A DNA stretch of 61,658 nt. Source: a virus. Made by a program: the position numbers and the translations under genes. The stretch is taken from positions 1-61,658 of IMG/VR virus record IMGVR_UViG_3300043640_000110; one strand, given 5' to 3'. Shown here in pieces: positions 48,226 to 60,660 of the stretch. Each line of letters begins with the position of its first letter. Position 1 is the first letter of the stretch. The notes under the pieces were generated by a model. The model worked only from the letters and a program-made list of their open reading frames with translations, was not told the DNA's origin and searched no databases.

Positions 48226-49389
48226 ATGGCACACAATATCAATACCTACATCGGACGGCGGAGCGCTTGGCACGAACTGGGAACCGTGACGGGCAAATAT
48301 CAGACTACAGAAGAACTGTTAGCCGATCCGGGTTTTCGGTACCACGTATTTAAGGAGCAATTGCGCGACGGATACGGGCGGCCTGTAGATGCGTGGGCAA
48401 CGTATCGCATTAATCACGCCGATCAAAACGACTTACGCAAGGCCGAGTTTTTGGGTAGCGTTGGCGAGGATTATGCCGTAGTCCAGCACGCGGAAGGTTT
48501 TAAGACCATCGACGCATTAATGCAAACTGCGGACGGAGCGCACTACGAAACCGCTGGGGTACTTGGCAATGGCGAAACCGTTTGGGCATTGGCCGATTTA
48601 GGTTTAACGGTTAACGTTCGCGGCGATCAGCAGGACGGTTATGTTCTCTTCAGCACCGGACACGACGGGAGCATGAGTCACTCCTACCGCTTGACTATGA
48701 CGCGCGTAGTCTGTCAGAACACGCTGAATGTAGCCCTCTCCGGTAAGACGAAAGCCAAGCTTACGGTGCGCCATACCAAAAACGCCATGAGCAAAATTCA
48801 TGCCATGGGCGAGACGTTGCAGTCTATATCAGCTGATATGCGCTCGGTTGAGGATAAACTCAAATTCCTCGCATCGCGCAAGGTCACGAAAGATAGCATG
48901 GTAAGCATTTTAGACAGGCTATTTCCAAAAGCCAAAGACGATAACGGTTCTGACCGCGATACCACGCGCCGTACAAACATCGTTAGCAAAGTGCTGGAAT
49001 TGTACGAGTCCAACGATAATAACGCCTTCCCAGAGCAGCGCGGGAGCGCTTATAATCTGCTCAATGCGATCACCAATTTTACCGATCATGAGCGCATCGG
49101 CGACAACGGCAAACGCGCTGTTAGCTCTATGTTTGGCAGTGGTGATGCACTCAAAAGTAATGCGTTTGGGGCGATATTGAGCGAGGCTAAGGATCTGCCG
49201 GAATTGGTGTATGTAGGTGCTACGGCTGCTCCCGCTCCGGTACGGCAAACGGTACGCGCTGCTCAAAGCGTGGTAGCGCCGAACTGGACTAGCGTGGGAA
49301 CGTCGGTATCCAATGCGGTCCCCAATGATGGCGACTGGCTCACGGCTGCTATTCGCGCTACCGAGTCCCGTCCCAAGCAAATTGCCTAG
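48226..49389 (+). CDS. DUF932 / phage-plasmid-like TIGR03299-type protein
   Basis: The 387-aa protein fits DUF932: it starts with AWHELGT (about 14-20), has GVLGNGETVWALADLG near residue 108-123 and MTRVVCQNTLNVALS about 160-175. This family is common on phages, plasmids and integrative elements, with an unknown role in DNA metabolism or gene exchange. The gene is led by RNA element E1. Confidence 0.85.
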   Translation: MAHNINTYIGRRSAWHELGTVTGKYQTTEELLADPGFRYHVFKEQLRDGYGRPVDAWATYRINHADQNDLRKAEFLGSVGEDYAVVQHAEGFKTIDALMQTADGAHYETAGVLGNGETVWALADLGLTVNVRGDQQDGYVLFSTGHDGSMSHSYRLTMTRVVCQNTLNVALSGKTKAKLTVRHTKNAMSKIHAMGETLQSISADMRSVEDKLKFLASRKVTKDSMVSILDRLFPKAKDDNGSDRDTTRRTNIVSKVLELYESNDNNAFPEQRGSAYNLLNAITNFTDHERIGDNGKRAVSSMFGSGDALKSNAFGAILSEAKDLPELVYVGATAAPAPVRQTVRAAQSVVAPNWTSVGTSVSNAVPNDGDWLTAAIRATESRPKQIA

Positions 49390-52285: not shown

Positions 52286-52363
52286 ATGCATGAAATTATG
52301 TGGATTCTCTTCCTAGCCCTTTTAATCAAGGGAATCCTGGAAGAGTTTGAGGACCGGCGATGA
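52286..52363 (+). CDS. 25-aa membrane peptide
   Basis: The product starts with MHEIMWILFLALLIKGILEE, a short membrane helix, then a charged end. GGGAG lies 7 nt upstream and the stop overlaps the integrase start (ATGA), so it may act as a translation-coupling leader. Confidence 0.45.
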   Translation: MHEIMWILFLALLIKGILEEFEDRR

Positions 52364-53331
52364 GACGATCCAACGTACTCGCAATGCCGCAACACAAAGG
52401 GCGCGCGGATCTATACGGGCTAGTCCAAACCGTTATCGATTCCATGCCAAGCCTAAACAGTAAACGTGCGTACCGTAAAAAGCTATTAAGCTTTCTCGAC
52501 TCCGGCTTTCCTTTCACGCGGGAAGGAATCACGGCTTATCTCGCAGCTGAAAGTAAAAGTACGGGCGCGTCATCCATCCGCCTGCATATCGCCGTACTCC
52601 GCAAGCTGGTGACCGAAGCCGAGATTGCAGAGATTATTACCACGCGCGAGGCTCTTGGTATCCGGCAGATAAAACGCCCCACCGAAGTAGGAATCAAACT
52701 AGGCCATTGGCTCACTTTAGAAGGCGCGCGCGAACTGGTAAAACTACCTGATCGCGACACCCTGAAAGGCAAGCGCGATGCCGCTTTAATCGCCCTGCTT
52801 TTAGGCTGTGGTTTAAGGCGTGAAGAGGCCGCTGTTTTGACGTGGGAAAAGTATCGCGAATACCAAGACAGAATGTGTCTCGTGAACATCGCTGGGAAGG
52901 GTGGCAAAACCCGAACAATCCCCGTTCCGGCCTGGGCGCAGAGCGATTTAGACACTTGGCGCGCCGAATTAGGTATACTCAACGACCAAGGAGACGCAGA
53001 ATTGAAGCGTTTATACGTTTTAAGAGCGATTGTTGTGGGTGGAAAGGTAGGCGAGCCTAGGACGCTGACCAGAAACCTCACAGACAACGGCGTATGGTGG
53101 ATCATTTCGCGCTACGCCAAGCGTTTGGGGATTAAACTCGGCCCCCACGATTGCAGGCGCAGTTTGGCGCAGCTGATGCGGAAAAATGGAGCCGAAATTG
53201 AGCAGATCCAATTCATGCTCGGCCATGCCAGCGTGAAGACCACGGAAATCTACCTGGGAGGCAGGTTGGAACTGGCTCGCGGAATGGCCGCCGTAGACCG
53301 GGTGAAATTGGGCAGGGAGGAATGGAAATGA
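52360..53331 (+). CDS. Tyrosine recombinase (integrase 1)
   Basis: The 323-aa protein has the N-terminal SAM-like core-binding domain and the catalytic domain with the Arg in CGLRREEA, Lys in GKGGKTRTIP, the HxxR box (HDCRRSLAQ) and the second His with the nucleophile Tyr (GHASVKTTEIY). It should catalyse site-specific recombination. It is compact, more XerC/D-like than typical phage integrase 2. It overlaps a 25-aa membrane peptide start region by ATGA. Confidence 0.85.
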   Translation: MRRSNVLAMPQHKGRADLYGLVQTVIDSMPSLNSKRAYRKKLLSFLDSGFPFTREGITAYLAAESKSTGASSIRLHIAVLRKLVTEAEIAEIITTREALGIRQIKRPTEVGIKLGHWLTLEGARELVKLPDRDTLKGKRDAALIALLLGCGLRREEAAVLTWEKYREYQDRMCLVNIAGKGGKTRTIPVPAWAQSDLDTWRAELGILNDQGDAELKRLYVLRAIVVGGKVGEPRTLTRNLTDNGVWWIISRYAKRLGIKLGPHDCRRSLAQLMRKNGAEIEQIQFMLGHASVKTTEIYLGGRLELARGMAAVDRVKLGREEWK

Positions 53332-57017: not shown

Positions 57018-57159
57018 CGTGGACCCCAGCGAACTGCGGGAGAGCCTGTTGAAGGGGCCGCCGGTAGCCCATACATTTACAGACGATAAAGGTATAGAAT
57101 ATCGTTTAGCCCTTTATGGAGTGATGGAAAATCACGCTTACTACCGCTTGCTAAAATAA
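56971..57159 (+). CDS. Small unknown protein
   Basis: The 62-aa protein has AAGGGA upstream of ATG 56971 and ends in a TAATG overlap with integrase 2. It is acidic with an aromatic end (MENHAYYRLLK). Function unknown. Confidence 0.55.
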   Translation: MQAHFQAPDQTIVNFDVDPSELRESLLKGPPVAHTFTDDKGIEYRLALYGVMENHAYYRLLK

Positions 57160-58334
57160 TGCTGACCGCATACCGCAGACATTCCGAGAAATGCCCCCAT
57201 AAGGCGGATGGCCGCAGCTGGAAGCGCTGCAAATGCCCGCTGTGGACCGATGGCAGCCTGAATGGCCGCGAGATGCGCGTCTCGCTCGATAAGCTCGGCT
57301 GCTACACCTGGGAGCAAGGGCAGGAGAAGATTCGCGAATGGGAATCCAAGGGCCGCATTGTACAGCGGGTCGGAACCGTACCCTATCAGGATGCAATCGA
57401 TAAATTCATGGCATCCGCAAAGGCTTGTAATCTAGCTACTGGCACCATTATAAATTACAACAGTTTTTTTCGAGGGCTCGCTGGTTTTTGTTCGGACAAG
57501 GGGATTCGAGATATCAGCCAGTTGGACATGGATCTCACGGAGCAGTTCCGGAATTCCTGGACCTGTAGCCCGAACACCGCTAGAACCAAATTGATTTATC
57601 TCCGCTTCTTTATGAAGTATTGCCTGAAGCGGAAATGGATCGATGAAAACCACGCAAAAGAACTTGGTTCCGTAAAGGTCAAAGAAGTTCCAACGCTTCC
57701 CTATAACGTAGAAGAGGTCCGGTTGATTTTGGATTTAATCCAGCAAAACAGGTACGAAGGACGCCGGAATAAGCCTAAGCAGGAAACGATAGTACGCGCG
57801 CAAAGACTGCGGTTGATGTGTCTGGTAATGCGCTACTCCGGCCTTAGAGTCTCTGACGCCATAACGCTCAGCTCGAATCGCCTGGATAGCGAAGGTCGAT
57901 TATTCCTACACATGGCCAAGACAGGAACACCGGTCTACTGCGTGCTCCCGCTTTTCCTGGTAGATCAATTGCAGCGTTGCCCCATGGCTTCGATGGATCG
58001 CTATTTCTGGGATGGTACGGACGATCAATTGCGTAAGGATCAGATTGGTTACTTTCGTGAAATGTTTATCCAGCTTGCAGGGAAGAGAATTCCCAATGTT
58101 GGGTTTCATCGGTTCCGGGATACCTTTGCAGTTGAGCTGTTATTGGCCGATGTGAAGATTGAACGGGTAAGCCAGCTATTGGGGCATACCAGTATCGAGA
58201 CCACGGAAAAGCACTATGCTCCCTGGATCGCAGCGCGCCAAAGACAGGTGGAGGATGATATGCGCCGCGTGCAAGCCAATGACCCGCTGATTGCAAGCGA
58301 GACCCGGCCCGCGAAATTGGCGAGGGTGAAATAA
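57159..58334 (+). CDS. Tyrosine recombinase (integrase 2)
   Basis: The 391-aa protein has an N-terminal zinc-like motif (CPHKADGRSWKRCKCPLW, about 11-28), a core-binding domain and a catalytic domain with Arg in SGLRVSD, HRFRDTFA, and GHTSIETTEKHY. This N-terminal motif is typical of a recombinase group I associate with Acidobacteriota genomes (from general knowledge, not searched). It lies 1.1 kb upstream of the permuted tRNA. Confidence 0.88.
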   Translation: MLTAYRRHSEKCPHKADGRSWKRCKCPLWTDGSLNGREMRVSLDKLGCYTWEQGQEKIREWESKGRIVQRVGTVPYQDAIDKFMASAKACNLATGTIINYNSFFRGLAGFCSDKGIRDISQLDMDLTEQFRNSWTCSPNTARTKLIYLRFFMKYCLKRKWIDENHAKELGSVKVKEVPTLPYNVEEVRLILDLIQQNRYEGRRNKPKQETIVRAQRLRLMCLVMRYSGLRVSDAITLSSNRLDSEGRLFLHMAKTGTPVYCVLPLFLVDQLQRCPMASMDRYFWDGTDDQLRKDQIGYFREMFIQLAGKRIPNVGFHRFRDTFAVELLLADVKIERVSQLLGHTSIETTEKHYAPWIAARQRQVEDDMRRVQANDPLIASETRPAKLARVK

Positions 58335-58523
58335 ATGGCCTATATGTCTCGGAGCGATATTCGGAGTGCTATCCGGCAATTTCTGGACAGGAGTATTAAC
58401 GATCCGGTTTGTAAGCTTTTGCACGGTATTCTCAGCGGGGATAACACAAAAGAAAATGAATCTGTTTTAATGCATGCGCGGATTGAAATGCAGAGAGCTA
58501 TGAGAAAAGTGGAGGACGAATGA
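58335..58523 (+). CDS. Small helical protein
   Basis: A 62-aa, mainly helical protein (ATG 58335, immediately after the integrase stop) ending in MQRAMRKVEDE and overlapping the next gene by ATGA. Function unknown. Confidence 0.55.
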   Translation: MAYMSRSDIRSAIRQFLDRSINDPVCKLLHGILSGDNTKENESVLMHARIEMQRAMRKVEDE

Positions 58524-59281
58524 GCAAGCTACATGAACTACTGGCGGTCGAAGGAGATTTAAAATCCCAAGCCGAAGCCACCAGAAAAGACCTGAAGAAC
58601 ACCTTTGAAAAGAAAACCCATCACTTTTCAAAAAAGGTCGTGACCTTCAAGCCGAAAACGGAGGGCGCGGCGGATAAAGTGGAAAGCCAGCTGGCGCTCC
58701 AAAGCACCGTTCATAAGGAGCTGGCCTGGATCAGTGAAAAGCTGGCCAAAGCCATGGATGCGGGGCATCAAATCGATGTCGCTAATACCATGGCAACCGC
58801 CGATGTCATCCTGGAAGATGGTACGACGATTCTGCTCCACAATGTCCCAGCTACATCTCTTTTGCGGATGGAACACCGCATCATTGAGATTCGGGACTTA
58901 GTACACGCTATCCCAACCCTGGACCCGGCCAAGGGGTTTTTGATGGACCCCAGCGAGCAGTTCGGCATTTACCGGGCTCGCGACGATGAGCGCCCCCGTA
59001 CCGAGAAACAATTCGATTTCGTAGTTATGGTGGGACCGACCGATAAACACCCGGCCCAGACCAAGGAATTGATGCTGGATAAACCTATCGGTGTGGTTAT
59101 CACGCAGGAATGGTCCAGCGCAATTACAGTACAGGAAAAGGGCGATATGTTGGATCGCGTGGAAGAACTCCTACGGGCTGTGAAAAGAGCCCTGGCGCGC
59201 GCCAATGAATTTCAGGTGAAAGTAGAAGACTACAAGATTGGGCGTACCGTTTTGAAGTATGTTTTCGACGGGGCCAAATAA
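58520..59281 (+). CDS. DUF7873-like accessory protein
   Basis: The 253-aa protein starts LLAVEGDLKSQAEATRKDL and has ADVILEDGTTILLHNVPATS and TDKHPAQTKELMLDKPIGVV, all marks of a common phage hypothetical family I know as DUF7873 (from memory, not searched). Members are phage- and prophage-borne with no known role. It ends 5 bp before a GNRA hairpin. Confidence 0.6.
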   Translation: MSKLHELLAVEGDLKSQAEATRKDLKNTFEKKTHHFSKKVVTFKPKTEGAADKVESQLALQSTVHKELAWISEKLAKAMDAGHQIDVANTMATADVILEDGTTILLHNVPATSLLRMEHRIIEIRDLVHAIPTLDPAKGFLMDPSEQFGIYRARDDERPRTEKQFDFVVMVGPTDKHPAQTKELMLDKPIGVVITQEWSSAITVQEKGDMLDRVEELLRAVKRALARANEFQVKVEDYKIGRTVLKYVFDGAK

Positions 59282-59285
59282 GCTC

Positions 59286-59309
59286 GGGCGCGTCCGCAAG
59301 GGCGTGTTC
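59286..59309 (+). other. GNRA-capped RNA hairpin
   Basis: GGGCGCGTCC (59286-59295), loop GCAA (59296-59299), then GGGCGTGTTC (59300-59309). All ten pairs are Watson-Crick or G-U. It starts the structured non-coding region upstream of the permuted tRNA. There is no T-run after it, so it is not an ordinary terminator. Confidence 0.6.
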
Positions 59310-59406
59310 AGAATCAGCCTAAGACTTAAGGATTCAGAACTGGAATTACCGTTTTCAGACTTCTACCCGAGAGATTTAAGCTGGCGCAACAAACACCAAA
59401 GCAGCA

Positions 59407-59500
59407 GATAAGGTCATCAAAGCGGCGTCATTGGTTCGAATCCGATAGGGGCCCCCAAAATTTATGGCCCCTTAACTCAGCGGTAGAGTGCCGTGATAAG
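59407..59500 (+). tRNA. Circularly permuted tRNA-like gene
   Basis: The tRNA 3' half comes first: AGCGG anticodon stem (59421-59425), a four-base variable loop, T-arm ATTGG-TTCGAAT-CCGAT (59430-59446), acceptor AGGGGCC (59447-59453), C73 and CCA (59455-59457). After an 8-nt linker AAATTTAT comes the 5' half: acceptor GGCCCCT (59466-59472), TA, D-arm ACTC-AGCGGTA-GAGT (59475-59489), G26, and stem CCGT (59491-59494). All seven acceptor pairs are Watson-Crick. The D-loop has GG and the T-loop is canonical. The split falls in the anticodon loop, flanked by direct repeats GATAAG (59407-59412 and 59495-59500). U33 would come from the 5' half and A37-A38 from the 3' half; the anticodon depends on the junction (AUC if broken at 33/34), so identity is open. 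Confidence 0.8.
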
Positions 59501-59635
59501 ACTAAACCGAATCGGGACTGTTAGGTGTGATTCAAATAGCCAAAAATTAAGTCTGATCTTATAAATCAGTTACTAATTTGACTAGGGGCGGTTTCTCAGG
59601 CACGAGGGCCGCCCTGTAATAAAAACTGCAATAAA
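59501..59635. other. Structured non-coding region after the permuted tRNA
   Basis: No gene. It contains a hairpin with AGGGGCGG (59584-59591) and CCGCCCT (59609-59615) plus an inner CTC/GAG pair. It also has AAGTCTG near 59552, which is complementary to CAGACTT at 59356-59362 on the other side of the tRNA; one such match is expected by chance. I could not identify a group I intron core. Confidence 0.45.
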
Positions 59636-59842
59636 ATGCTCTTACTGTACGTCATTCACGACCATCCTTCGGATTTCCCGGATTGGTACGTAATTACCAA
59701 GTGGGACCTGTCTGTGCGCCTTGGTGTTTTTGGGTTTTGCAGGACTCTAGAAGAGGCGAGAGTGCATTTAAGTAGAAAAGGTTTAGTAAATATCGGGCGG
59801 GAACCCGATGACGATCCTAAGATTGTTGAGGTATGGGTTTAA
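59636..59842 (+). CDS. Small unknown protein
   Basis: The 68-aa protein (LLLYVIHDHPSDFPDWY at the start, TLEEARVHLSRKG later) is typical of short phage accessory genes. No clear ribosome site. It abuts the next gene start. Confidence 0.6.
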   Translation: MLLLYVIHDHPSDFPDWYVITKWDLSVRLGVFGFCRTLEEARVHLSRKGLVNIGREPDDDPKIVEVWV

Positions 59843-60091
59843 ATGGCTCTAGGAATTATCAATGAACAATGGGAAGAATTTTCTAAAAAGGTCATCCCTG
59901 ATACCGCTAGCGATAATCAGCGCAAAGCGATGAAGAGAGCCTTTTACGGCGGCGCTGGGTCTCTTTTGTTTTCCATCGTTGGTTTACTGGACGCCGACTC
60001 AGAACCTACCGATAAAGATCTCCTCATGATGACCTCGATTCATAATGAACTGGAGAACTTTAGCGCAGCCTGTCTAAGGGGAGAGCAATAA
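59843..60091 (+). CDS. Small unknown protein
   Basis: The 82-aa protein is helical with a hydrophobic centre (GGAGSLLFSIVGLLD). It starts immediately after the previous stop. No domain recognised. Confidence 0.6.
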   Translation: MALGIINEQWEEFSKKVIPDTASDNQRKAMKRAFYGGAGSLLFSIVGLLDADSEPTDKDLLMMTSIHNELENFSAACLRGEQ

Positions 60092-60348: not shown

Positions 60349-60660
60349 ATGCCTGAGACTCGCGTAGTGAATGTCCGAACTGAAATATGCGACATCTACA
60401 TCGGTCGCGAGCATCCAGCGGGTTACGCACGTTCCAAGTGGGCGAACCGGTACATGGTGGGCCGGGATGGGGATAGAGAGGAATGCATTGCCCTCTACGA
60501 AGCCGACCTACGCGCCGATCCGGAAAAGATGCGGCAAGCTGTAAGGGAGCTATCCGGGAAGCGCCTGGGGTGCTGGTGTGCTCCGGCTCCCTGTCATGGC
60601 GATGTGTTGGTACAGATTATTGAGGAAGCCCATGCCAAGCTATCAATGCGAACACTGTAG
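60349..60660 (+). CDS. DUF4326 protein
   Basis: The 103-aa protein fits DUF4326: CDIYIGREHPAGYARSKWAN, then LSGKRLGCWCAPAPCHGDVL. This domain is common in phages and bacteria; its CWCAPxxCHGD motif probably binds metal. Function unknown. Confidence 0.85.
   Translation: MPETRVVNVRTEICDIYIGREHPAGYARSKWANRYMVGRDGDREECIALYEADLRADPEKMRQAVRELSGKRLGCWCAPAPCHGDVLVQIIEEAHAKLSMRTL

Follow-up and report, generated by a model that had tools for sequence, protein, structure and literature searches.

A permuted tRNA-like domain encoded beside DUF7873 genes of phages and bacteria is likely part of a structured noncoding RNA

The IMG/VR virus record IMGVR_UViG_3300043640_000110 is 61,658 nucleotides (nt) long; we analyzed all of it and will call it the window. 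At 59422-59494, it contains an element that encodes the parts of a transfer RNA (tRNA) in permuted order: the T-arm, the 3' strand of the acceptor stem, and CCCA come before an 8-nt linker, the 5' strand of the acceptor stem, and the D-arm. A sequence-only reading of the window had described this order, which is real and was placed correctly base for base, and had proposed that splicing joins the outer ends of a permuted tRNA gene. Our comparisons of sequences suggest otherwise: the element looks like part of an undescribed family of noncoding RNA (ncRNA) and protein, related in design to the bacterial Y RNAs, and not like a new kind of tRNA gene. We think it likely that the element forms the tRNA-like domain within a structured ncRNA of ~330 nt (59286-59615). 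This RNA would be encoded on the same strand as a DUF7873 gene and directly downstream of it, and the gene and the RNA would make up a two-part unit, most likely a ribonucleoprotein (RNP). We favor an undescribed RNA-protein machine because hundreds of phages and soil bacteria carry the same RNA right behind DUF7873. The span first proposed, 59407-59500, does include the element but is too narrow; a better extent is about 59286-59615 plus the DUF7873 gene.

Linkage to DUF7873 genes and conservation of the fold

We fetched DUF7873 loci by protein sequence alone. A pattern scan with a single DUF7873 protein found none, and we used a degenerate DNA pattern for the peptide TDKHPAQ instead. This gave at least 116 loci in bacterial genomes and at least 116 in viral contigs; these are not phylogenetically independent, and their species range is a lower bound. 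The bacterial genomes are mostly from Streptomyces, Nonomuraea, Actinomadura, and Nocardia, along with Cyanobacteria, a myxobacterium, and an Armatimonadetes metagenome-assembled genome.

After removing ordinary tRNAs, we applied a descriptor of the permuted module to the DUF7873 loci. Among the matches listed, 188 of 206 loci from phages and bacteria have a module 0-600 nt downstream of the gene, as do 74 of 81 loci in a non-redundant set (<75% protein identity). For comparison, the opposite strand gave 0/206, dinucleotide shuffles gave 21/4120 (0.5%), and other sense positions gave 43 in 1.64 Mb. At 88 DUF7873 loci there are at least two modules; frequently, two different modules stand in tandem. 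The arrangement can also be seen in named Rhizobium, Gordonia, Vibrio, and Arthrobacter phages: downstream of DUF7873 is a stretch of several hundred nt in which few genes or none are annotated, and each such stretch holds one or two permuted modules. The integrase, as a guide to relatives, led to only one distant locus. We found no conserved neighbor protein other than DUF7873, with clustering being noisy in GC-rich DNA. When 14 of the DUF7873-linked loci were compared to Rfam, no family besides tRNA reached the cut-off.

To describe the fold, we built a covariance model (R1) from 40 modules of other genomes, excluding the window and its closest kin. R1 has exactly one match in the 61.7-kb window, at 59419-59497 (46.2 bits, E = 8e-10). 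Because R1 was built without the window or its kin, this single match implies that the element did not arise by chance. In the alignment of the 40 modules, again without the window, 87% of cells are paired. The covariation score is 0.70, versus 0.20 for shuffled alignments and 0.18 or less for slid registers, in modules that were partly selected for pairing. Thus the permutation is kept in related genomes with pair-preserving changes and has not decayed, as the sequence-only reading had anticipated.

The descriptor preselected the T, acceptor, and D helices for pairing, and it also demanded U54, U55, C56, A58, and G18-G19. We therefore rely more on features that were not selected, such as the closing stem, the basal flanks, and U8. 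The closing stem has all four of four pairs in 73% of modules, versus 18% if flanks are swapped between loci. The basal flanks pair at -27 kcal/mol with their own partners and at -19 kcal/mol if swapped between loci (P = 5e-24). The sequences outside the closing stem thus pair much better with their own partners than with those of other loci, and so resemble segments of a stable RNA. At the level of single positions, U8 is found in 95% of modules, A14 in 96% (the descriptor required a purine), G53 and C61 in 99%, and C74 in 88%. U8, A14, G18-G19, G53-C61, U54-U55-C56, and A58 are the nucleotides that hold the elbow of tRNA together, so the permuted domain probably keeps the L-shape of tRNA.

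As an independent check, we examined 61 Streptomyces genomes. DUF7873 is present in 32 of these, with a single copy in each. R1 has 20 matches of at least 70 bits in these genomes, and all 20 are directly downstream of DUF7873. R1 is not a clean detector across whole genomes, as tandem tRNAs give a background of ~55 bits in Streptomyces.

Anatomy of the RNA and its candidate protein partner

The DUF7873 gene of the window and all parts of the RNA are on the plus strand. By direct reading, the T-arm (59430-59446) comprises the strands ATTGG (59430-59434) and CCGAT (59442-59446) around the loop TTCGAAT (59435-59441); all 5 of its 5 pairs form, and the R1 match covers it. The acceptor 3' strand AGGGGCC (59447-59453) forms 7 of 7 pairs with the 5' strand GGCCCCT (59466-59472), which can be read directly and lies in the R1 match. 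Between them, the acceptor loop (59454-59465) holds C and CCA at the N73-CCA position (59454-59457) and the 8-nt linker AAATTTAT (59458-59465), in line with a family consensus that starts with N-C-Y-A and has a U before the next strand. U8-A9 (59473-59474, direct reading) and the D-arm ACTC-AGCGGTA-GAGT (59475-59489, R1 match), with A14 and G18-G19, follow. The element is closed, at the position of the anticodon stem, by pairing of GCGGC (59422-59426) with GCCGT (59490-59494). This stem had been described as CCGT/GCGG pairing across the permutation; the stem is real, with five pairs (one of them G-U) instead of four.

Farther out, the minimum free energy (MFE) fold and the duplex energy give an imperfect basal stem between 59393-59418 and 59500-59528, which would close the tRNA-like domain. 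The MFE fold has z = -2.2. The duplex energy is -27.8 for the window's own flanks versus -17.9 with the 3' flanks of other loci, only 1.7% of which are equally good. The MFE fold also has a GC-rich hairpin (59286-59309) right behind the DUF7873 stop codon.

Across the family, the RNA regions carry a YUNARN motif with a period of 6 nt, such as CTCAAA CTGAAA CTCAGA CTGATG at locus L204. Pairs of YTNAR at a spacing of 6 occur 120 times versus 11 expected, and the autocorrelation of the letters peaks at lags of 6, 12, and 18 (t = 12.4 at lag 6). Most loci also have a strong hairpin 3' of the last module, with the loop HGGNUAY. In the window, the four tandem hexamers TTCAGA ATCAGC CTAAGA CTTAAG (NUNARN; 59307-59330) are a candidate protein-binding tract, and a count of spacings adds two more, ATAAGA CTAAAC, 3' of the D-arm (59496-59507). 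With the looser NUNAR form, the RNA region of the window has 4 pairs of NTNAR at a spacing of 6, versus 0.5 in shuffled sequences (P = 0.003). A probable counterpart of the family's 3' hairpin is at 59585-59615 and has the GG-containing loop CTCAGGCACGA.

The DUF7873 gene (58520-59281; PF25283, E = 7e-61) encodes a protein of 253 amino acids and adjoins the RNA on its 5' side. AlphaFold gave a model with a mean confidence (pLDDT) of 92.4 from an alignment of 92 sequences; the single-sequence model was unusable (pLDDT of 39). The predicted structure has long helices and a long beta-hairpin with TDKHPAQ at its tip. Fold searches found no significant match among PDB or viral folds, and DUF7873 has no PHROG or NCBIfam family. 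We found no paper, among open papers, on DUF7873 or its linked RNA.

As the sequence-only reading had expected, standard tools miss the element: according to ARAGORN, the window has no ordinary tRNA, and no Rfam family was found at gathering cut-offs. A permissive Rfam search of 58900-60000 found no permuted group I intron near the site. Exact and near-exact DNA searches of viral contigs had no match to the window's module.

Elsewhere in the window, 302-1381 encodes a ParB-like protein, and there are tyrosine recombinases at 52360-53331 and 57159-58334; together, these make a phage-plasmid lifestyle possible. DUF932 (48226-49389) and DUF4326 (60349-60660) are both uncharacterized families.

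Interpretation and alternatives

In YrlA RNAs, a basal stem binds Rsr/Ro60, and PNPase is bound by a tRNA-like domain made up of D, T, and acceptor arms (PMC8394870; PMC7790460). It is established that this YrlA domain is the same permuted module and that splicing plays no role in it (PMC8394870). In the permissive search of 58900-60000, the sole meaningful match was to YrlA (RF02553; 25.6 bits, E = 0.006). It covers exactly the element and aligns it to model positions 23-86, which are the tRNA-like domain. The YrlA consensus from this search shares both the permuted order and the closing stem with the element. Hence, the permutation by itself is known biology and requires no splicing.

It is improbable, though, that the element belongs to a Y RNA of the ordinary YrlA type, with Ro60 as its protein, either the phage's own (and missed by us) or the host's. 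YrlA is the best Rfam match, other DUF7873-linked RNAs score 33-37 bits against it, and R1 also detects genuine Ro60-linked RNAs in phages. But the window's score is below the gathering score of 69 bits, and the TROVE domain of Ro60 (PF05731) was not found in the record, which may be incomplete. UUACUUC, which is found in 8/9 Ro60-type loci of phages and Streptomyces (mostly ~15-30 nt before a T loop), is absent from the window and from all 120 of the DUF7873-linked modules. Conversely, the 6-nt repeats of DUF7873-linked RNAs were not found in Ro60-type loci, and there is the linkage to DUF7873 itself. Because of the cut-off, the absence of Ro60, and the absence of the motif, the window's RNA fails as a member of YrlA; it probably works like a Y RNA nonetheless.

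A circularly permuted tRNA gene, which would yield a functional tRNA by ligation of the outer ends and removal of the linker, is less plausible still, and we consider it very improbable. The T, D, and acceptor arms are complete, and the closing stem is where an anticodon stem would be. As the sequence-only reading had suggested, rotated sequences pass ARAGORN, which accepts many choices of the splice. The "anticodon" varies with the choice, however, and because it depends on an arbitrary join, the rotation test supports tRNA-likeness without naming a tRNA. There is no natural anticodon loop and no unique join, and the flanks are conserved as a basal stem. A search of the record for RtcB and for RNA_ligase-family ligases found neither, but the record may be incomplete, and a ligase could come from the host. 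The Y RNAs are a precedent that does not involve splicing. The modules also occur next to a single kind of protein gene in hundreds of genomes, and two different modules frequently follow one another there. Conversion into a ligated tRNA is thus unsupported. As for a remnant of an attachment site or of tandem tRNAs, left by integration or decay, we give it almost no credence: the two tyrosine recombinases do lie upstream, but the fold is conserved, which already refutes this explanation. The arrangement shows covariation and is kept in a wide range of phages and chromosomes, at 188 of 206 DUF7873 loci, and the tandem tRNAs in our viral pattern scan pair their acceptors only at random.

A further proposal is compatible with the Y-RNA-like RNP that we prefer. 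RNase P and RNase Z might excise the linker and leave a nicked, two-piece domain, held together by base pairs and with a free CCA end. The start of the acceptor loop as N-C-Y-A across the family (C74 in 88% of modules, A76 in 64%) and the U found just before the acceptor 5' strand in 62% of modules suggest removal of the linker, and the window has both CCCA and U(-1); permuted tmRNA (transfer-messenger RNA) offers a precedent. The comparison of CCA ends does not point the same way. CCA is encoded in 15% of modules in genomes (where U(-1) is found in 29%) and in 49% of modules in viruses. The pooled CCA fractions of modules and ordinary tRNAs matched, but within loci, CCA in the modules did not track CCA in the ordinary tRNAs of the same phages (p = 0.32), so we dropped this as evidence. 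Also, many bacterial modules have loops of 6-8 nt without CCA, and some loops pair through the CCA and lengthen the acceptor hairpin. On balance, a two-piece RNA is possible but doubtful.

How might the preferred DUF7873-RNA unit work? Several DUF7873 subunits would bind the YUNARN hexamers, with one subunit per 6 nt. The tRNA-like domain, with its elbow nucleotides and C74, would dock a host enzyme that recognizes the top half of tRNA; candidates are PNPase (as for Y RNAs), RNase P, and tRNA-modifying enzymes. The RNP would then act as a tether or decoy, as Y RNAs do but with a different protein, and the permuted domain would be a mimic of tRNA that does not become one. In a more speculative version, which we consider unlikely, DUF7873 polymerizes on the RNA at six nt per subunit and displays one or two permuted domains; these are trimmed by RNase P and RNase Z to two-piece, CCA-ended tRNA mimics that engage the host's tRNA or translation machinery. 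This would be an unrecognized class of RNP in phages and Actinobacteria.

Several observations weigh against the preferred reading. No module was detected at 18 of the 206 DUF7873 loci. The window carries a single module and only four tandem hexamers, one of which starts with a purine; it has no run of three in a strict YUNA test, and its 3' hairpin loop (AGGCAC) departs from the family's HGGNUA. TDKHPAQ is near-invariant in the fetched proteins, but this is partly forced, as the peptide was the search pattern. Contact between the protein and the RNA is inferred from linkage and periodicity alone, and the docking partner is a guess.

If the preferred reading holds, it would explain permuted tRNA signals in phages without splicing. 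It gives DUF7873, which has no fold match, a candidate RNA partner, and the RNA is a candidate for a new Rfam family. The 6-nt periodic code predicts how DUF7873 would bind.

Other modules and comparison with known systems

A pattern scan of viral contigs for permuted modules gave at least 120 loci, most of which are tandem ordinary tRNAs. Among the matches listed, 19 places are free of overlap with ordinary tRNAs, and 16 of the 19 (including the window) pair 6-7 of the 7 acceptor bases. By eye, we judged one of them, L081, to be the leading part of an ordinary tRNA not detected by ARAGORN. Among the matches listed, a TROVE gene is present in three records with modules and in none of the tandem-tRNA records; in L037 and L116, it is within ~1 kb of the module. 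Modules in records with neither TROVE nor DUF7873 are L026 (1772-1847), L113 (two, on the minus strand), L117, L070, L064, L110, L022, L050, L090, L059, and L078. The basal stem of L070 is long and almost perfect. A TGCTTATTTCT flank is common to L026 and both L113 modules, whose stems show compensatory changes. These modules may have a third partner protein, or the contigs may be incomplete.

In Streptomyces, other strong paired matches to R1 lie away from DUF7873. In the one that we examined fully (L373), a TROVE gene is directly downstream of the modules, which identifies it as a Ro60 Y RNA. The Ro60-type Y RNAs at L373-L378 match R1 and have at least two permuted modules ~170-240 nt apart, with GGTTACTTC-like motifs. 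We also considered whether the Streptomyces RNA is scr3559, but scr3559 is a 6S-like RNA.

The permuted tRNA genes of algae and archaea likewise place the 3' half before the 5' half, with a short linker and a near-CCA end. The window's element differs in having neither an anticodon loop nor a ligase of the families sought in its record, and DUF7873-linked modules occur in bacteria and phages beside one protein family. In permuted, two-piece tmRNA, the linker is removed by tRNA enzymes. The order of T-arm, acceptor, CCA, linker, and acceptor is the same, but the window's element has a full tRNA D-arm, and neither the gathering nor the permissive Rfam search of the window found a match to tmRNA or permuted tmRNA. 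(Pseudanabaena phage PA-SR01 has a sub-threshold match to permuted tmRNA at L135 6763-6942, with 31.9 bits versus a cut-off of 47.) GOLLD and ROOL are large structured phage RNAs that are often near tRNA arrays. The DUF7873-linked RNAs resemble them in being large and structured, but at gathering cut-offs the 14 loci had no match to such families.

The closest likeness is to the Y RNAs that work with Ro60, in which the use of a permuted tRNA mimic was already known. Both kinds of RNA have the same permuted domain of T-arm, acceptor, and D-arm, a short closing stem, and a basal stem; both are encoded beside a dedicated protein gene; and both can have two modules in tandem. They differ in their partner, as DUF7873 is unrelated to Ro60, and in their motifs: DUF7873-linked RNAs have YUNARN repeats, a 3' hairpin with a GG loop, and N-C-Y-A in the acceptor loop, and they lack UUACUUC. 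Because the module is tied to the unrelated DUF7873 in about half of the sampled Streptomyces (32/61) and in many phages, the permuted tRNA-like domain appears to be a building block that is reused in at least two RNA-protein systems. The DUF7873-linked RNA is 3' of its gene, whereas the one Ro60 RNA of Streptomyces that we examined (L373) is 5' of its gene.
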